64,000 nt of DNA from Stratiformator vulcanicus (GTDB lineage Bacteria > Planctomycetota > Planctomycetia > Planctomycetales > Planctomycetaceae). The stretch covers positions 2,705,712 to 2,769,711 of the forward strand of contig NZ_CP036268.1 of NCBI RefSeq assembly GCF_007744515.1, written 5' to 3'. Position numbers and translations under genes: made by a program. Positions 34,812-44,132 of this stretch are shown piece by piece. A model generated the notes under the pieces. It worked only from the letters and a program-made list of their open reading frames with translations. It ran no database searches and was not told the DNA's origin. Positions within the stretch are counted from its first letter, which is position 1. Each line of letters opens with the position of its first letter.

Positions 34812-35705
34812 TCACCCCTTTTGCCGATAGCGACGGCTCGCTTCTTCGAGCAATTTGCGCTCTGACTTCGTCAGGCTCGCTTCGCCCTGCTCGCTGATCT
34901 TGGCGAGCGCGGCATCGACCTTTGATTCCAAGTCGTCTTCGGCTTCGCGCTCAGCGGCGTGTTCCGGGTCATGGACACGCAACTTGGGCTGCCGCTTGAA
35001 CCTTGGGATCGGAATCCCTCGGGGTAGGCCGTCCGAAATCCGCCAACCGCTGCGCTGGTAAAGGAAGGCGAAGCCGACGCTCGCCAGCGATGCGATCGGG
35101 ACGACGTTCGCGATTCCATCCGGACTGGACAACTCGAACAATGCGGCCAACACGTTGCCCGCGACAAACAACCCGACCAGCCAGCGGATTTCGATCGGAA
35201 TAATGAAGAACAGCAGAATTTTCTGACGTGGAAAATGCAGCGCGTAGAGCGTGACGACGGCCATCACCGCACCGGTCGCCCCGTACATTGGCCGTCCGGC
35301 GTCGTAAGCAAGGCCGAATAAGAAACCGGTGATGCCCGTGATCAGGACAGTCGCGAAGAAGAAGGTCGCGTATTCCCGAGAGCCATACATGCCCTCAAGA
35401 GTGCGACCGAACCACCACAAAAACAGAAGATTGAAAATAATCTGGAGCGGAGCGCTGATTTCGTGACAGAACGCATAGGTGACCAAACGCCAAATTTGGC
35501 CGCCCAGGATGTCCGTGGGGGTCAGGTCCAACCATTGTTGGGCCAGAGGCGCGATCCCCTCCTGGATATTCTGTGACGTGAGAATTTGCAGGACAAACAC
35601 GCCGGCAATGAGCGCGATCAACCACTTCGTCGCCGGATCGGTCGCGAAGAAATTTGCACCGCCCTGCGTGTCATCGCGGAGATATTCGCGGTCTTCGATT
35701 CCCAT
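34812..35705 (-). CDS. Rhomboid-family pseudoprotease with C-terminal LT-SER-RYRQ module
   Basis: The 297-residue protein has rhomboid topology: WRLVTYAFCH, then LQIIFNLLFLWWFGRTLEGMYGS, about six membrane helices. The catalytic serine motif GxSG reads GATG (Thr144). The catalytic His of the sixth helix, in a motif like AHLGG, is Ser206 (IASLAS), and the other common His nearby is Pro203. Both members of the dyad are therefore missing, so proteolysis is unlikely. The cytosolic tail (about 236-297) is charged and ends in VDAALAKISEQGEASLTKSE then RKLLEEASRRYRQKG, a module also found at the end of the M50-like protein at 43149-44132. It may bind or chaperone membrane proteins as iRhoms and derlins do. 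Confidence 0.85.
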   Translation of the reverse strand: MGIEDREYLRDDTQGGANFFATDPATKWLIALIAGVFVLQILTSQNIQEGIAPLAQQWLDLTPTDILGGQIWRLVTYAFCHEISAPLQIIFNLLFLWWFGRTLEGMYGSREYATFFFATVLITGITGFLFGLAYDAGRPMYGATGAVMAVVTLYALHFPRQKILLFFIIPIEIRWLVGLFVAGNVLAALFELSSPDGIANVVPIASLASVGFAFLYQRSGWRISDGLPRGIPIPRFKRQPKLRVHDPEHAAEREAEDDLESKVDAALAKISEQGEASLTKSERKLLEEASRRYRQKG

Positions 35706-35896
35706 ACCGCGCCATGCGCCTCCGTGGTCAAGCGAGCGGGTACACCAGCGTGCCCGCGGCCGAAATTATGAACCCAATTGAATAGCCATCAAGCAAACGT
35801 TTTTCGTGATTTCGGTTGAGAAAACGCTTTGGCAACCCCGAATTGCGATCTTCAAACGAGGTACAGACCTCGAATGTCGAACCAGATGAGCTCAGG

Positions 35897-36787
35897 CTAG
35901 TTGATTCGCTCCGCAATTCGAGACGCCTCAACCGGCTGCGGGAGTTGGGTCGTCAGGTCACGATTCTCTTCGATGATGGCAAGCAATTGATTGTAGGCGT
36001 TGTGCACACTGAGTCGCAGGCCGGCGAGCTGTTCGGCTGCGGAGTCACGAGCCTCTTCCTCTGCAAAGATTGTCGCGATGAGCCCGTCAGCGAACTCCGG
36101 CGTTCTCTCGATCCGCTGCGCGCCGGGATTTCCGGTCAGGCGTTTTTCGAGATAGTCGAGGTGATCGTTGGCCTGAGCGACTTCAACTTCAGCTTGGGCA
36201 ACCTGTTCCTGCAAGGCCCTGTTGTCATCGGCCCGTTCCGCGATCCGGTCGCGCAGTTTATCGACGCGAGCCGGCGGCGCGTAAGGCGTGGTCTGCCAAA
36301 ATCGCCATTCGCCCTGCGGCCAAGACTGAATTTCTTCGGGAAGCGCGGTGAATGTTGGCCGGAAGCGAGAAACGCTCGCGTTCGCGACGACAAGCTCAAA
36401 TTTGCCGATGTATTCACTTGAGCCGTCCGCACCAACCGCGAATGCCTCGTACGTTGGGTTCGGTCCTCCCCGCCCGGTGCCAACACCGAACCCCTGATCC
36501 TGTCCCAACTGGGCCGTGACCAATCCGGTTGGCTGCTCGACATTCGTCGCCGGTGAGATGTGGGGATCGGACCAGTTGAGCTGAAACCGTGCGAACTTTG
36601 TTTCCAAGTCGCGGACGGCTCGCTCTTGCTTGGCGACCTGTTCCTCCAGCCCGGAGATCGACTGCTCAGCCTGCTTGACCTGACTCATCCACGAATTGCG
36701 AACGTTGATCAGTTTCGAAGTCAACAAGACTGCCGCAACGCCCAGACAGAAGGCGATTCCAAGCATGACTTTGCCGAGGACGTGCAT
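35897..36787 (-). CDS. Membrane-anchored coiled-coil protein
   Basis: The 296-residue protein has one N-terminal membrane helix (VMLGIAFCLGVAAVLLTSKLI), a coiled coil (about 35-70: VKQAEQSISGLEEQVAKQERAVRDLETKF), a beta-rich middle domain (about 85-165), then a second long coiled coil (about 175-290). No catalytic motif is visible. The design suggests a periplasmic or cytosolic structural protein in the envelope. It is upstream of the pseudo-rhomboid on the same strand, separated by about 190 bases. I recognise no characterised family. Confidence 0.75.
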   Translation of the reverse strand: MHVLGKVMLGIAFCLGVAAVLLTSKLINVRNSWMSQVKQAEQSISGLEEQVAKQERAVRDLETKFARFQLNWSDPHISPATNVEQPTGLVTAQLGQDQGFGVGTGRGGPNPTYEAFAVGADGSSEYIGKFELVVANASVSRFRPTFTALPEEIQSWPQGEWRFWQTTPYAPPARVDKLRDRIAERADDNRALQEQVAQAEVEVAQANDHLDYLEKRLTGNPGAQRIERTPEFADGLIATIFAEEEARDSAAEQLAGLRLSVHNAYNQLLAIIEENRDLTTQLPQPVEASRIAERIN

Positions 36788-37156
36788 TCCGGCTTCCGGG
36801 TTGGGCTACCACGACCAAAGCGCGGCAACCATTCGCCACGCAAACACTGAATGTAATAAGTGATTAGAGTATCGGCGCCTCGCAGGGTCAAGAACGACCA
36901 TGCGAGGAAGTTTTGCGTGGGGGGCCGATCTCGCCACGATAACATGCTGGCTCGGTGACGCCGGTCGCAACGATCGCAAGCAAACTCCCGATTTCGACGA
37001 CGATCACGATGCCGCGGGCGAATCGCAAGGGCCGAATGGTTTCGCCACGGCGAAGAACCGGTAGAATTGGCCGCGGCGGTTGATCTGCTCAGGAGCATCA
37101 CGGCGGCTCACTCGACCGCAATCAGGGAGATTCGATTGTTTGAACCGAACGGCCCA
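36788..37156. other. Intergenic region between divergent coiled-coil and YkgJ-type genes
   Basis: About 370 bases. A frame from 37067 is open into the downstream gene but its first 30 codons are not family-like, so the start is placed at 37157. An AT-richer stretch near 36845-36870 (AATGTAATAAGTGATTAG) could contain a promoter for the minus-strand gene. I see no RNA gene or hairpin of note. Confidence 0.4.
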
Positions 37157-37597
37157 ATGACACAGCGTGTCCGTAGAGAAGACCTGAAACCGGGCGAGAA
37201 TCTGTGCTCGTACTGCACGGCCAAATGCTGTCGATATTTTGCGCTGCCCATCGAAACCCCCTCAGAGTGGAAGGACTTCGACTTCATCCGCTGGTATATG
37301 ATCCACGGGCGGGTCGCGGTCTTCGTGGATGAGGGTTCGTGGTTCCTGCAGGTCTTTGCGGACTGCCGGCACCTCAAAGAGGATTACGGCTGCGGGGCGT
37401 ATGAAAAGAGACCTCATATCTGTCGCGAGTACTCGACCGACAATTGCGAGTACGACGGTGACGGGACCCATGAACGCTACTTCGAAACACCGGAGCAAAT
37501 TTGGGAATATGCTGAAGCGGTCCTCCCGCCGGCCGAGCGACGCAGCGTTGGCAAAACCCTCTCCCTGCCAGTGATCGAGCCTTTAGCGCCGCGCTAG
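37157..37597 (+). CDS. YkgJ-family cysteine-cluster protein
   Basis: The 146-residue protein has the cysteine pattern of the YkgJ (CxxxCCxxx) family: LCSYCTAKCCRYFALPIETP near residue 18, then ADCRHLKEDYGCGAYEKRPHICREY with further cysteines, and NCEYDG. The conserved cysteines are thought to bind zinc or an iron-sulfur cluster; function is not established. ATG 37157 begins close to the motif. The gene lies 170 bases upstream of hisS and is co-directional. Confidence 0.82.
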   Translation: MTQRVRREDLKPGENLCSYCTAKCCRYFALPIETPSEWKDFDFIRWYMIHGRVAVFVDEGSWFLQVFADCRHLKEDYGCGAYEKRPHICREYSTDNCEYDGDGTHERYFETPEQIWEYAEAVLPPAERRSVGKTLSLPVIEPLAPR

Positions 37598-37767
37598 TCG
37601 AAACATCAGGAATCCAAAACTCTGCGGACATCCCAAACCGTTACCGTCGTTTCCTCTGCGTCGTCCTGATTCGAGCCGACCTGTCATAGCAACTCTCGGT
37701 TGCTCTCGAAGTCCGCAAGCCCGACGTTTTCCACAATCCTTTTTCTCCAAGCGAAGCAAAGAGTCCG

Positions 37768-39126
37768 GTGGCCAAACTGATCCCCAATCGCACGCTCAAG
37801 GGGTTTCGCGATTTCCTACCGACGCAAGCGATTGCGCGAGAACGGCTGATCGACACCGCCAAGGCGGTCTATCGAAGCTACGGTTTCGCGCCGATCGACA
37901 CGCCCGCGCTCGAGTACGCCGAAGTGCTGCTCGGCAAAGGCGGGGTCGAGTCTGACAAGCAGATGTTTCGGTTCGAAGATCAAGGAGGTCGCGACGTCGC
38001 GATGCGGTTCGATCTGACCATCCCGTTCGCGAGATACGCCTCGCTAAACATGAACGAGATCGGCACTCCCTTTAAGCGGTATCACATCGGAAGCGTGTGG
38101 CGTGGTGAATCTCCGCAGCGAGGCCGGTACCGCGAATTTACGCAGTGTGACTTCGACACGATCGGGACTCGGTCGACCGCCAGCGATGTCGAAACTCTGC
38201 TCGTCATCCACGATCTGCTCGATCGTCTCGGCGTCGAAAACTTCACGATCCGAATCAACAACCGGCAAGTTCTCAACGGGTTGCTTGAGCAGTTTGATCT
38301 GTCCGACCGCTCGGCCGAGGTGCTGCGGGCACTTGACAAACTTCCCAAGATCGGGCGAGACGCGGTGCTCGAAGAGCTTTCCGAACGGGCCGGCGTTCCG
38401 ACCGCGGCCGCCGAGCAGATTTTGGCCTCCGTCGAACTCGAAGGCGAGCCAGAGTCTATTCTCGCAGAACTCGAATCGATGACGACGGCGAGCGAGGCCG
38501 GACAGAGCGGCGTCGCCACCCTCAGAGAGATTTTCGATATCGTAACACGTTCCGGCATCTCAGCGGGGAGGGTTCGGCTCGATCCCTCGATCGCGCGGGG
38601 CCTCGACTATTACACCGGCACGATTTACGAGACGTTTCTCGACGACCTCCCCGGCATCGGCAGTGTCTGCTCCGGCGGTCGGTACGATAATCTCGCGCAA
38701 CTTTTCACAAATCAGGAACTTCCGGGTGTCGGGGCGAGCCTGGGCGTCGATAGGCTCTTGGCAGCTTTTGAGGAATTATCACTGATTGACGGTCGTTCGA
38801 CGCCCTGCCGCGTGCTGATCACGCAGTTCGATCGGGGTCGGTTGGCCGATTACGTCGGGATCGCAAGGGAGCTGCGATCTGCGGGCATCGATGTCGAGCT
38901 TTATCCGGACGACAAAGCCATCGGCAAGCAATTGAAGTATGCCAACCGCAAAGGCTTTGCACTGGCGATTCTGGCAGGGGCAGACGAACTCGATGCCGGG
39001 ATTCGGCAGCTCAAGGTCTTGAAGACCGGCACTCAAATCGAAGTTGAAGCCGAGCGTCTTGTCGACGAGATCAAAGAGCGATTGGCGGACGAGCGATCTT
39101 CGATCGGCAGCGTGGAAATCGAATAA
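37768..39126 (+). CDS. hisS: Histidyl-tRNA synthetase
   Basis: The 452-residue class II synthetase has an N-terminal GFRDFLP, motif 1, motif 2 (FKRYHIGSVWRGESPQRGRYREFTQCDFD), the histidine-binding region (RLDPSIARGLDYYTGTIYET), motif 3 (GVGASLGVDRLL) and a C-terminal anticodon-binding domain (VLITQF to the end). It charges tRNA-His in the cytosol. It starts with GTG. Its stop overlaps the start of the next gene (TAATG), so translation of the HYExAFE gene is probably coupled. Confidence 0.96.
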   Translation: MAKLIPNRTLKGFRDFLPTQAIARERLIDTAKAVYRSYGFAPIDTPALEYAEVLLGKGGVESDKQMFRFEDQGGRDVAMRFDLTIPFARYASLNMNEIGTPFKRYHIGSVWRGESPQRGRYREFTQCDFDTIGTRSTASDVETLLVIHDLLDRLGVENFTIRINNRQVLNGLLEQFDLSDRSAEVLRALDKLPKIGRDAVLEELSERAGVPTAAAEQILASVELEGEPESILAELESMTTASEAGQSGVATLREIFDIVTRSGISAGRVRLDPSIARGLDYYTGTIYETFLDDLPGIGSVCSGGRYDNLAQLFTNQELPGVGASLGVDRLLAAFEELSLIDGRSTPCRVLITQFDRGRLADYVGIARELRSAGIDVELYPDDKAIGKQLKYANRKGFALAILAGADELDAGIRQLKVLKTGTQIEVEAERLVDEIKERLADERSSIGSVEIE

Positions 39127-39692
39127 TGGCGATCCTTTCGAACCCGTACGAAAGTGCGTTCGAAGCCTACTTGAAGAGTCGGCAGATGCCCTATGTCGCC
39201 GTCGACGAGTCAAGAAGAGTATTGCTGCGAAATGCCTCGCTGAAATCGATCGACTTCGTGGTGGAACATCCGACGCGCGGACAACTGCTGATCGACGTCA
39301 AGGGGCGGCGTTTTCCGTCGGGCGGTCCGCGGTCAAAGCATCGTTGGGAGAACTGGGTCACGAACGACGACGTCGAAAGTCTCTCGAATTGGGAAGAAAT
39401 TTTCGGCAATTCGTCACAAGCGATGTTCGTTTTCGCTTACGAATTGGGAGAGCCTCGATTCGAGGCCGAACACGCCGAAGTGTTCGGTTGGGACGATCGG
39501 AAGTATGCCTTTTACGGGGTGACTGTGGCCGATTATCAGGCCGCGATGACGTTGCGTTCCCCACGTTGGGACACCTCGTTCGTTGCCCGCGCCACCTTCG
39601 ATCGTCTACGATTTCCGTTTGCTCAACTGCTCGCAACGAACGACGAAAACCACGAAGAGAATCACAACGGGCGAACATGGGTCAACATGTGA
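39126..39692 (+). CDS. HYExAFE-family protein, possible PD-(D/E)xK nuclease fold
   Basis: The 188-residue protein opens NPYESAFEAYLKSRQMPYVAVDESRR, matching the planctomycete HYExAFE family motif except that the first His is Pro. Within residues 9-59 there is an order of acidic residues and a Lys (Glu9/Glu13, Asp43 in IDFVV, Asp57-Val-Lys59 in LLIDVKGR) that fits the catalytic core of PD-(D/E)xK nucleases; this reading is my inference. The later WENWVTNDDVESLSNWEEIFG is also typical of the family. Function is unknown. It overlaps hisS (TAATG) and the next gene (TGATG). Confidence 0.83.
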   Translation: MAILSNPYESAFEAYLKSRQMPYVAVDESRRVLLRNASLKSIDFVVEHPTRGQLLIDVKGRRFPSGGPRSKHRWENWVTNDDVESLSNWEEIFGNSSQAMFVFAYELGEPRFEAEHAEVFGWDDRKYAFYGVTVADYQAAMTLRSPRWDTSFVARATFDRLRFPFAQLLATNDENHEENHNGRTWVNM

Positions 39693-39895
39693 TGGGTCAC
39701 TTCCTACGACGACGAGTTCTTCCTGCCGCTCTGCTGATGTGGATCAGCGCGAGTTCCGCATTCGCTCAGGACGCAGGGGCCGTAACTGTTCCGCCCCCGG
39801 TCTCGACTCGCAATTACATGGTCGACGCCGCCATTTATCTCGCTTTGGCAGGGGCGGCTCTGGCCGCCGTTTGCCACTCGAGTCGACGAACGTAG
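39692..39895 (+). CDS. Tiny exported or membrane protein coupled to the HYExAFE gene
   Basis: This 67-residue frame has a signal peptide (RRRVLPAALLMWISASSAFAQ) and then a short linker and one hydrophobic helix (YMVDAAIYLALAGAALAAVC) with a basic end. Its ATG overlaps the upstream stop (TGATG), which supports real translation; another in-frame ATG five codons upstream is possible. It follows hisS and the HYExAFE gene and precedes the ketoacyl synthase by 21 bases. No family is recognised. Confidence 0.65.
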   Translation: MGHFLRRRVLPAALLMWISASSAFAQDAGAVTVPPPVSTRNYMVDAAIYLALAGAALAAVCHSSRRT

Positions 39896-39916
39896 ATAGA
39901 TAACGGCGTAAGGGTC

Positions 39917-41164
39917 ATGCCTGGGTCGGCAGAAGACATCGTCATCACCGGTATCGGCTGCGCAACGCCGCTCGGTCCCGACTGGGAATCGTCGTGGCGT
40001 CGCCTCGCCGCCGGCGAAGTGGCAACTCGTCGGCTTGATGCATGGGCGATCGACGATGACGCGCTCCCTCCGGCGGCTGACTTCGCCGGCGCGCCGCTTT
40101 TCCCGGATTCGCGATTTCGTCCGTCGAGTGAATCGACTGATACCGCCTTTGCCGATCCGGTCTACGGGCTCAGCGAGGCGATACTCACCGAAGCCCTTGA
40201 GCGGTCGGGTCTCAGTGAAGGCGAACTTACCGATCCGCAGACGAGCTTGATCTTCGGCAACAGCAAAGGCTCGGTGTGGGGGCAGAGTATCGAGTCTCGT
40301 GGAATGGCGGCTGGGAATTCGGACTTCTTCAGTTTATTCCCCGCCGGTCCATCAACGTATTTGGCCGGGAAGTTTGGGATTCGCGGGCCGGTGTTGGCTC
40401 CGGTTGCGGCCTGCGCGACCGGCTTGGTCTGCCTGATTCGCAGCGCCGACATGCTTCGGCATGGCACCGCGGACCGCGTCATCTGCGGGGCGGCGGACGC
40501 GTCTCTTCACCCGGCCATCTTGGCGTCGGCTCATCGTCTTGGCGTCAGCTCCCACGAGGATGATCCGCGTAGAGCCTGCCGTCCGTTTGAGCGCCGCCGC
40601 TCCGGTTTCCTGGTCGGCGAGGGCGGAGCGGCATTTGTCTTGGAACGAAGGAGAGCAGCCGAAAAACGGGGTGCGGAGATATTGGCCGTTTGGAGGGGAG
40701 GCCTCTGTGGAACCGACCCCACGGCTCTGACAGCGTTGGATGAATCGGGCCGAACCCTCGGCGACCTGATGATCCGCACGCTGCAATCCTCTGAGACAGC
40801 TCCCGGGGATATCGACTACATCAATTACCACGGGACCGCGACAATCGCGAATGATCTGACGGAGAGCCGTGCCGTCCGTCGGGCCTTCCCGAGACACGCG
40901 GAACAGACCAAAGGTTCTTCCGCCAAAGGTCAGATCGGACACCTGCTCGGAGCGGCCGGAGCCGTGGAAACGGCAATGACGATTGCGGCGATCCGACATG
41001 ATACCATTCCGCCGACGGCGAATCTCGACGAGGTCGATCCGGAATGCGGGCTCGACTACACGCCGCTGCGACCCGCGCTGCATCCGATCAAACACGCTCT
41101 GAAGCTATCACTCGGCTTCGGCGGGACGATCGCCACGGCGTTGTTGTCAGCACCGGACGGCTGA
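39917..41164 (+). CDS. Beta-ketoacyl synthase (FabF/KAS II-like)
   Basis: The 415-residue thiolase-fold enzyme has the decarboxylating KAS triad: Cys166 in VAACATGLVCL, His in INYHGTATIANDLTES and His in KGQIGHLLGAAGAVET. The start IVITGIGCATPLGPDWESSW and the end LKLSLGFGGTIATALL are also family-like. It condenses malonyl-ACP with an acyl chain. The sequence is more divergent than housekeeping FabF, so it may serve a special lipid or polyketide product. It is the last gene in the hisS run. A short hairpin (CGACGAA/TTCGTCG, 41198-41216) follows. Confidence 0.88.
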   Translation: MPGSAEDIVITGIGCATPLGPDWESSWRRLAAGEVATRRLDAWAIDDDALPPAADFAGAPLFPDSRFRPSSESTDTAFADPVYGLSEAILTEALERSGLSEGELTDPQTSLIFGNSKGSVWGQSIESRGMAAGNSDFFSLFPAGPSTYLAGKFGIRGPVLAPVAACATGLVCLIRSADMLRHGTADRVICGAADASLHPAILASAHRLGVSSHEDDPRRACRPFERRRSGFLVGEGGAAFVLERRRAAEKRGAEILAVWRGGLCGTDPTALTALDESGRTLGDLMIRTLQSSETAPGDIDYINYHGTATIANDLTESRAVRRAFPRHAEQTKGSSAKGQIGHLLGAAGAVETAMTIAAIRHDTIPPTANLDEVDPECGLDYTPLRPALHPIKHALKLSLGFGGTIATALLSAPDG

Positions 41165-41245
41165 TTGTTGCCGCGGGTGCCGTCAGACAATCTCTCTCGA
41201 CGAATTTTCTTCGTCGACGAATCGAGACTCAGCATTCGAGCGAGA

Positions 41246-42910
41246 TTAGCGATCCAGTGAAATTGTCGACAGACTTCCGTCGATCGGAGCACCCGCTTCT
41301 AAAGAATAGGTGGCATAGATGTTGAGAATGTCTTCTCGACACGCGAAATACGCATCGATGACATTGGGGTCCCACTGCTCATTTCGACCTTTCCGGAAAA
41401 TCTCCTCAATCTTTTGATTGGGCATTCCCTTTCGATAGGGCCGATCGCTCCCCATCGCGTCGTAGCCATCGGCAACAGCAAGAATCCGGGCCATGAGCGG
41501 AATATCGTCGCCGGCCAGCTTGTCGGGGTAGCCGGTGCCATCAAAGTTTTCATGATGGTTCCGGACGCCGGGCAAGATGTGCTGCAAGTTGCTCAGGCCC
41601 TTCAAAATGTTGTACCCGATCGTTGGATGGGCTTTGACGGCCTCAAACTCCGCGTCGGTGAGTCGACCCGGTTTCCGCAAGATGCGATCGTCGATCCCGA
41701 TCTTGCCGACATCGTGCAACAGGCCTGAGAGATAAATGTCTCGCAGGTCACCTTCGGGCAATTTCATGTGCTTGCCGATCCGCCGCGCGATCAACGCGAC
41801 ACGCTCGCTGTGACCGCGCGTGTAAGGATCTTTGGCGTCCAATGACGAAACGAGGGAACGGACAAACCCGATCAGGAGGTCCTGATTCTGCTGATACAGT
41901 TCGGTGTTGCGGACGTGTGTTCCCAGTATCGTCGCGACCGAATTCATGAAGCCGGCTTCAACGGTTCCGAATTCCTGTCCGTGTGTTCGATTGCAGCAAA
42001 AGACCCAACCCTTGCGGTGTTGGCCTTCTTGGATGGGGACGAGAATGAAATTGCTCAGCCGCGGGTAGTCGGCCCCCAGAAGCGTCTTGCCGACGTGGTT
42101 GCGAACGAGGGGCCTTGACCATTCGACGTCGGAAAACGACTCGATCAGTGTTTCAAGTTCCCGTGGTTCGAACGGCAAAACGCCGCGGGAATGAAGCAGA
42201 TTTCGTCGCGATCGATCATTGATCAGGATCAGACTTCCGCCCGCGTCGACCAGCGCGTGCAGCCGGCGGACACACAGATCGGCCAAGGACGTCGGCCCCT
42301 GTGATACCTGCAGATTGCGACTGAGGTCGTGTAAAAGACTGATCTCCTCGTACGTATGATCCAGTTGGCAGGTCACATGGTCGAGTTCATCTTCCAATCG
42401 CAATCTCGCCGAACGTCCCGAGAGGTGCTCTGCCGCGAGCGTGATGAGTCGCTCGACGACGTTTCCAGACAGAGCCTCGCATTCGTTCCAAAAATGACGA
42501 AGCTGTCGAGCGGACCAACCGGCCTGTGAGCCGGCGATGATCAGGTCAGCCGGCGGCTCGCAGCGCGTTACTTGAGCGACGGATGCCTTGGCTGACGGAA
42601 TGTATCCGAGCGCCGCATACCGTGTGCGATTCTCCACGCAAAATGGGACGGCATAAAAAACCATCCCCGCGTTGGTCTCCCACTTTTTCGGGTGCGTCAA
42701 TTGTTGCAGTTCCTCTCGGACGCAATCGGGAATCATCGGCGGAAGTTGCCCGGCCACTTCGACAACGCACCGACTATCGATGCGGACTGCGAAAAACGGC
42801 AAACCAGTGCAGGCCCGCAGTTCGTCGACCGTCCCCGCAACCTGTTCCGACGCGACGGCCGGGAGGTCGGACATGGAGATTTCTGATCGGACTACGGTGC
42901 CGAGCGGCAT
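41246..42910 (-). CDS. GAF-HD-GYP protein, putative cyclic-di-GMP phosphodiesterase
   Basis: The 554-residue cytosolic protein has an N-terminal region of unclear fold (1-185), a GAF-like domain (about 190-340: EISLLHDLSRNLQVSQG, LVDAGGSLILIND) and an HD-GYP domain. The latter is intact: RGHSERVALIARRIG, LLHDVGKIGIDDRIL, HHENFDGTGYPDKL and AVADGYDAMGSDRPYRKG. HD-GYP enzymes cut cyclic di-GMP, or related dinucleotides, to GMP using a bi- or trinuclear metal site. Its start is placed at ATG 42910; ATG 42874 is an alternative. It is convergent with the ketoacyl synthase gene. No GGDEF protein is in the window. Confidence 0.9.
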   Translation of the reverse strand: MPLGTVVRSEISMSDLPAVASEQVAGTVDELRACTGLPFFAVRIDSRCVVEVAGQLPPMIPDCVREELQQLTHPKKWETNAGMVFYAVPFCVENRTRYAALGYIPSAKASVAQVTRCEPPADLIIAGSQAGWSARQLRHFWNECEALSGNVVERLITLAAEHLSGRSARLRLEDELDHVTCQLDHTYEEISLLHDLSRNLQVSQGPTSLADLCVRRLHALVDAGGSLILINDRSRRNLLHSRGVLPFEPRELETLIESFSDVEWSRPLVRNHVGKTLLGADYPRLSNFILVPIQEGQHRKGWVFCCNRTHGQEFGTVEAGFMNSVATILGTHVRNTELYQQNQDLLIGFVRSLVSSLDAKDPYTRGHSERVALIARRIGKHMKLPEGDLRDIYLSGLLHDVGKIGIDDRILRKPGRLTDAEFEAVKAHPTIGYNILKGLSNLQHILPGVRNHHENFDGTGYPDKLAGDDIPLMARILAVADGYDAMGSDRPYRKGMPNQKIEEIFRKGRNEQWDPNVIDAYFACREDILNIYATYSLEAGAPIDGSLSTISLDR

Positions 42911-43148
42911 AGCAAGACCTGTGCATAGAGAGGATTCTCTACAAGCTAGGTCACGGCAGGCCCCGATGTTCTGCGAACGCAACGTATCGGCCGGAGTGTG
43001 TTCGCTTTAGGAACGCCGATCGATACAGCGAAGCGATTTGCGCCAATAGTCCGGTCGCGCGGACTGTGACACGTCTGCGGGCGACACCCGCGGAGAAAAC
43101 CTGCAATCTCAGCAAGAAACCGGTCGAAAGAAAATTTCGACTCAAGAT

Positions 43149-44132
43149 TCAGCGATCGCCCTGTTGCCGATACCGCGCTGATGCGCGGCGCAATCGACGG
43201 CGCTCTGATTCCGTCAAACCACGTAGTCCGCTTTCGTGAACTTTCGACAGAAGGCGGTCGATCTCCTGTTCGTCGAGTGCATCTCGTTCTCGACGCCGTC
43301 GCTCTCGCCGTGTGCGGCGATCTCGGAGCCAGCGTTCCATGAAATTAGGCTGAGCCGTCGGCTCGCCCGCACGCTCTTGCTCGAGACTGGTGTATCCGGC
43401 TGAAAAATCGTACCCGAGAAATGTTTCGTCAAACGTTTCACTGTCGTCGCTGCGTTCCACTCGCGGCCGGTTGAAGAGCGCGAGGTAGCCGGAGATCGCC
43501 AAAGCCCAAAGTTGGCCACACGCCAGCGATGCAATCGCGAGTCCGATTGAAATCGCAAAACCGAAATGGTTTCGACGCGCCGGGACCGTCTTCACTTCAG
43601 GAAGGCGAACGGACAGCAGCTTGGCTGCATCGAGGGGCCGCGCGGGAATGAGGTTCAACAGCAACAGCAACCAGTTGACATGAAAATTGATCAGGCAGAC
43701 TTCCGTGAATCCGACTGACGATCCGGCCTCGATCGGGAAGGTGAACGGATTCAGGCCGTCTTGCCAGACACCTTCGTGCAACACGGTCGGCAGGAAGGCC
43801 ACAACGGCTAGCGAATGCACGACATAGCCGCCCATCGCAACGGCCAAACGGGAGACAATGGTCGGACCGCCTTCGATGCCAGACCCTTCGCCGCAGACAC
43901 CAAACGACAATTCACGGACGTATCCGCCGGTCAGCCGCGCCGCGAGTGCGTGCCCAAACGTATGCACGGCGACCCAGAGGGCGTAGAATCCGAAGAAAGC
44001 TAGGCCCATTGTGAACCCGGGCAGACGGATCACCAAAATGGGGAGCAACAGTACTAAGACCCAACTCAGCCGGATCGGGACGCCGAAGAGCCGACCAATG
44101 CCGAACGTCCAACCTTCGACGCGTTCATTCAT
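43149..44132 (-). CDS. Site-2-protease (M50)-like pseudoprotease with C-terminal LT-SER-RYRQ module
   Basis: The 327-residue multi-pass protein has M50 architecture. The zinc motif HExxH reads HTFGH (His57-Thr58-Phe59-Gly60-His61), so the catalytic Glu is missing although both His remain. A later NLIPARPLDAAKLL (Asp168) corresponds to the NxxPxxPLDGG site, keeping the third metal-ligand Asp. Zinc might still bind but hydrolysis is unlikely. The cytosolic tail is strongly basic (RDRRTRRERRRRERD) and ends LLSKVHESGLRGLTESE then RRRLRRASARYRQQG, very like the tail of the pseudo-rhomboid at 34812-35705. ATG 44132 is chosen; an earlier frame start at 44189 is possible. Confidence 0.83.
   Translation of the reverse strand: MNERVEGWTFGIGRLFGVPIRLSWVLVLLLPILVIRLPGFTMGLAFFGFYALWVAVHTFGHALAARLTGGYVRELSFGVCGEGSGIEGGPTIVSRLAVAMGGYVVHSLAVVAFLPTVLHEGVWQDGLNPFTFPIEAGSSVGFTEVCLINFHVNWLLLLLNLIPARPLDAAKLLSVRLPEVKTVPARRNHFGFAISIGLAIASLACGQLWALAISGYLALFNRPRVERSDDSETFDETFLGYDFSAGYTSLEQERAGEPTAQPNFMERWLRDRRTRRERRRRERDALDEQEIDRLLSKVHESGLRGLTESERRRLRRASARYRQQGDR

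Follow-up and report, generated by a model that had tools for sequence, protein, structure and literature searches.

Two genes on the reverse strand of the window, the 64,000-nucleotide stretch of the Stratiformator vulcanicus genome that was analysed, encode membrane proteins that differ in fold and end in the same short C-terminal module, DUF6576. The first (34812–35705) specifies a 297-residue rhomboid-fold membrane protein that is catalytically dead. It scores 68.7 bits against Pfam Rhomboid (PF01694), placing it in the family by fold, and its six-helix core is GlpG-like (Foldseek to GlpG 5f5j, E 5e-6). The dyad that marks an active rhomboid, a GxS[GA] serine and a histidine in TM6, is absent. 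Against 30 aligned orthologues, GASG has become GATG through Thr144 (codon ACC, 35274–35276, reverse strand), where orthologues carry the catalytic serine, and AHLGG has become ASLAS through Ser206 (codon TCG, 35088–35090, reverse strand), where they carry the catalytic histidine; in the same alignment, the second histidine of TM2 is replaced by glutamine. Profile match and model place the DUF6576 module of this protein at residues 263–297 (34815–34919, reverse strand), with a helix at 247–273, a turn and a helix at 280–296. At the opposite end of the protein lies MGIxDRDYxRD (35670–35705), an N-terminal signature of tailed rhomboids that is conserved despite the low confidence of the model there.

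The second gene (43149–44132, reverse strand; 327 residues from an ATG) encodes a membrane protein of the M50, or site-2-protease, fold that has lost its catalytic glutamate. It matches Pfam Peptidase_M50B (PF13398) at 27.2 bits (cut-off, 26) and falls just short of the threshold for PF02163 (26.6 bits; cut-off, 27.2), and the fold is borne out by a Foldseek match to mjS2P (3b4r, E 1e-5). An active M50 enzyme has the catalytic glutamate of HExxH; here, again relative to 30 aligned orthologues, HEFGH reads HTFGH, with Thr58 (codon ACG, 43959–43961, reverse strand) at the glutamate position between the retained His57 and His61, and PLDGG reads PLDAA. As both zinc-ligand histidines and the aspartate are kept, zinc binding may survive. 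The DUF6576 module, placed by profile match and model at residues 289–326 (43155–43268, reverse strand), is modelled with a pLDDT of about 95 as a long helix (264–301), a turn at Gly302 and a second helix (308–326). Between the membrane domain and this module is a conserved linear motif, GYDFSAGYTSLEQ (consensus GYDFSQGYTSLER; 43377–43415, reverse strand). The pattern GYDFS[QA]GYTSLE[RQ] is nearly invariant in M50 orthologues though the loop that holds it is modelled at low confidence; it occurs at most once per genome, is exclusive to the tailed M50 and is retained by several dead M50s as well. It has the appearance of a short binding motif. The orthologues of both window proteins were drawn from about 40 related genomes, and the AlphaFold2 models of both proteins are confident (mean pLDDT 88).

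The two tails align without gaps, with 19 of 39 positions identical. Their BLOSUM62 score of 96 lies far outside that of 5,000 shuffles (mean 24, s.d. 4.7, maximum 54), each window protein retrieves the tail of the other when the whole genome is searched (E 9e-6 and 1e-4), and a profile of rhomboid tails matches a profile of M50 tails with 99.5% probability (E 4e-23), compared with 0.8% for a reversed control. A sequence-only reading of this DNA had described the tails as D-x2-L-x-K-x2-E-x-G-x3-LT-x-SER-x2-L-x2-AS-x-RYRQ-x-G, shared by two pseudoproteases with unrelated membrane domains. The motif reads correctly, one homologous module does stand on two unrelated folds (GlpG-like and mjS2P-like), and both proteins have lost catalytic residues, serine to threonine and histidine to serine in the rhomboid and HExxH to HTFGH in the M50-like protein.

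The module is Pfam PF20216 (DUF6576), already catalogued and listed as of unknown function. Against its curated cut-off of 27.3 bits, the M50-like protein scores 35.5 bits; the rhomboid passes with the tail alone (29.7 bits) and in a genome scan (28.5 bits), with its whole-protein score (24.6 bits) below the threshold. Beyond these two proteins, the 5.2-Mb genome holds no convincing match to DUF6576. In the models, the tail forms a helical hairpin: a long helix leads to a turn at an invariant glycine, and a second helix follows a conserved LT. A sequence search of solved structures returned nothing alike, the best match being casein peptides (E 0.18), and we found no paper naming DUF6576 in the open-access literature. 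A generic low-complexity helix is ruled out by the specificity of the profile, the two matches in the genome and the two partner folds, so that the specificity implied by the sequence-only reading stands.

Across the phylum, DUF6576 is carried by 354 of 392 genomes (about 90%), mostly in one or two copies. A census starting from the module yielded 111 distinct carriers: 79 rhomboids, 31 M50/site-2 proteases and a single frame-broken M50, the M50 body of which lies in the neighbouring frame; no further type of partner occurs among these 111. The position is equally restricted, with 122 of 124 tails ending within 15 residues of the C terminus. Many of the 392 genomes have a single tailed protein only, and the rhomboid–M50 pair is therefore not obligatory. 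Outside the phylum, a DUF6576-like tail is found in Bacteroidota, on a Bacteroides rhomboid with intact serine and histidine, and on a Gemmatirosa rhomboid. Among individual loci, one genome encodes tailed M50 proteases in tandem (L264, 2478–3464 and 3893–4843), and two tailed rhomboids sit in frames of 926–928 residues (L136, 810–3593; L262, 2436–5213), possibly with large N-terminal extensions.

Most proteins bearing the tail look like working enzymes. Of 102 tailed rhomboids, 87 retain both the serine and the histidine; among the tailed M50s, 8 true losses leave about 111 of 119 intact (from 120 sequences, the fragment L239 was excluded, and an apparent loss in L026 was an alignment slip, the protein reading HEFGH). 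Confinement of the module to pseudoproteases is thus ruled out. The sequence-only reading had supposed that the module was joined to two inactive proteases and would fail if its partners were mostly active; the profile census across the phylum finds just that, and this part of the proposal falls. Since most tailed enzymes are intact, the tail was most likely in place before inactivation, which followed repeatedly. FastTree reconstructions give at least five changes of state in rhomboids and seven in M50s, from quick trees that leave the direction and the exact number uncertain. The dead rhomboids of the class cluster together with modest support (84–85) and on long branches, so shared ancestry and long-branch attraction are indistinguishable as explanations of their grouping. 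In family f30, five tailed rhomboids (L080, L082, L094, L096 and L098) have no TM6 histidine and often no serine; judged by these residues, the group is a second, predicted pseudo-rhomboid lineage. Where both proteins could be read, loss in both occurs in the window genome only, and the cases are too few to claim that the losses are associated. This genome also encodes rhomboids and M50s that lack the tail and have intact motifs, so the tailed proteins are not its sole source of either activity.

In much of the phylum, the genes of the tailed rhomboid and the tailed M50 protease are linked as a pair. They are directly adjacent and co-directional, in both gene orders, in 13 genomes from four families other than that of the window (L103–L109, L111, L122, L141, L150, L153 and L270; L110, a tandem rhomboid pair, is not counted), and adjacency recurs in two named Phycisphaerae metagenome-assembled genomes (L243 and L244). 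Direct adjacency is the layout in genomes of the Phycisphaerae type. Within the window's family, the pair lies 5–9 kb apart on one strand in six compared relatives (G020, G009, G007, L174, L199 and L207), with the M50 gene upstream and the rhomboid gene downstream. The intervening block comprises an HD-domain gene, a ketosynthase, hisS, a CxxCxxCC protein and a coiled-coil gene, most of which recur in the six, and the window matches this layout exactly. Even within the family, linkage is by no means universal: most named loci with a 10-kb flank show no nearby rhomboid. In the window, the gene directly downstream of the M50 gene encodes an HD-domain protein of the HD-GYP type (41246–42982, reverse strand; same block in five of six relatives), and cluster comparison identifies hisS (37768–39126, forward strand) as a landmark inside the cluster. 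Directly upstream of the rhomboid and co-directional with it is a gene for a probable membrane-anchored coiled-coil protein (35897–36787, reverse strand; six of six relatives). The sequence of this protein is poorly conserved (24–34% identity) yet its position is held in all six relatives, and it is a possible functional partner of the rhomboid.

An adjacent rhomboid and site-2 protease, both intact in most genomes, could also be read as a pair of enzymes acting in sequence: the tail would recruit substrates such as membrane-anchored signalling proteins, which the rhomboid and then the M50 protease would cleave, and the window lineage would merely have lost the chemistry. Among the neighbouring genes scanned, none beside the pair was recognised as encoding an anti-sigma factor or another obvious substrate, and the retention of dead versions sits badly with a role confined to cleavage; we regard this explanation as improbable.

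That retention extends to the tail itself. Tails score no differently in dead and intact copies (P = 0.52 for rhomboids; P = 0.15 for M50s). Body scores are lower in dead copies (P = 5e-5 and 0.03, respectively); phylogenetic distance is a partial confounder of this drop, since the profiles for the bodies derive from the class to which the window belongs. When orthologues are ranked by conservation, with a high rank meaning well conserved, the tail of the window rhomboid stands 28th of 30, near the best, and that of the window M50-like protein 21st of 31, its body being the third least conserved of the 31. Catalysis has been lost repeatedly while the tail stayed conserved, and in the window genome it has been lost in both proteins. 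That each of the window proteins has shed its catalytic residues and kept its tail suggests that the tail, and not cutting alone, is what matters.

The same facts could be put down to decay. If the pathway had become dispensable, both window genes would be losing their catalytic residues, and the tails would persist only because the loss is recent. Two dead enzymes in one genome and the unusually divergent body of the window M50 are what such an account predicts, but it has to contend with two frames that are full-length and intact, several altered active-site positions in each protein, confident models of both (mean pLDDT 88), tails and a GYDFS motif as conserved as in intact orthologues, and a retained gene cluster. 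We therefore hold decay to be very doubtful.

Our favoured proposal, to which we give slightly less than an even chance, makes the hairpin a docking element: it would tether the two intramembrane proteases to a cytosolic partner that they have in common, or tether one to the other, and the window copies would act as adaptors. DUF6576 would be a C-terminal cytosolic helical hairpin common to a rhomboid and a site-2-type M50 protein, whose membrane folds would each bind transmembrane clients. Through the hairpin, both proteins would engage a single cytosolic partner, or one another, and whichever fold captured a client membrane protein would pass it on. The window pair, no longer capable of hydrolysis, would then be left as substrate-binding adaptors, much as YqgP serves FtsH and Derlins serve p97; on this analogy, the window copies probably do act in that capacity. 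Docking is the simplest reading because two client-binding folds share the hairpin, the genes are linked and the hairpin outlasts the chemistry. The possible common partner or shared system put forward in the sequence-only reading gains support from the restriction to two partner types and from the conserved gene linkage. FtsH is only a candidate for the partner, favoured as a guess from precedent; the FtsH-type peptidase domain is present in two copies in the genome.

A point against docking is that two tails from one genome show no significant excess of similarity over tails from different genomes (P = 0.08). This absence of significant within-genome coupling suits a different role, in which the hairpin regulates from within the molecule or through homo-oligomers, gating its own protease or driving dimerisation much in the manner of the CBS domains of other site-2 proteases. 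There would then be no external partner common to the two proteins, each of which would have acquired the same regulatory module. A hairpin with an exposed long helix in the models, its placement after the last membrane helix at the C terminus and the existence of untailed paralogues are also in keeping with such a regulator. What it leaves unexplained is the sharing of the module by just two folds, the linkage of their genes and the conservation of the tail in dead enzymes, and we consider it a serious but unlikely alternative. The docking proposal can be extended to the whole phylum, as a system for handling membrane proteins in which two arms of unrelated fold, a rhomboid and a site-2 protease, receive clients, present the same hairpin to one cytosolic machine and work whether live or dead. 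The window species would then have a purely pseudoprotease, ERAD-like version. This larger picture is speculative, and we would be somewhat surprised if it held in full.

Intramembrane proteases that have lost activity are familiar from eukaryotes but poorly understood in bacteria. A shared tail on a linked pair provides a handle for finding a common partner, allows one to ask whether bacteria have a two-arm version of Derlin-like membrane quality control, and suggests a testable role for an uncharacterised Pfam family present in about 90% of the phylum's sampled genomes. In the open-access literature, no paper was found that brings together rhomboids, site-2 proteases and planctomycetes, nor any description of the shared-tail pair, its gene linkage or the recurrent catalytic loss.

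Among known entities, the PF20216 entry represents the same module, and both window tails match it. The Bacteroides finegoldii protein WP_032839011.1 likewise joins a rhomboid fold to this C-terminal tail; it differs in having its serine and histidine intact and in having a second rhomboid, rather than an M50 protein, as its neighbour. The window M50-like protein has its membrane core in common with mjS2P (3b4r) and SpoIVFB, and departs from them in lacking the catalytic glutamate and in having a DUF6576 hairpin at its C terminus, a position occupied in some site-2 proteases by a CBS domain. Derlins and iRhoms share with the window rhomboid a catalytically dead rhomboid fold. They are eukaryotic, the Foldseek matches of the window rhomboid to them are weaker than that to GlpG, its closer structural match, and to our knowledge they have no DUF6576 tail. 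In bacteria, a functional precedent is YqgP of Bacillus subtilis. The cytosolic domain of YqgP is reported to be N-terminal and metal-binding, with no DUF6576 or M50 partner mentioned in the excerpted report (PMC7231995). The same work describes how YqgP, whether or not it is itself active, delivers MgtE to FtsH, and YqgP thereby offers a works-like analogy for the window proteins: a bacterial rhomboid that can serve as a non-catalytic client adaptor.
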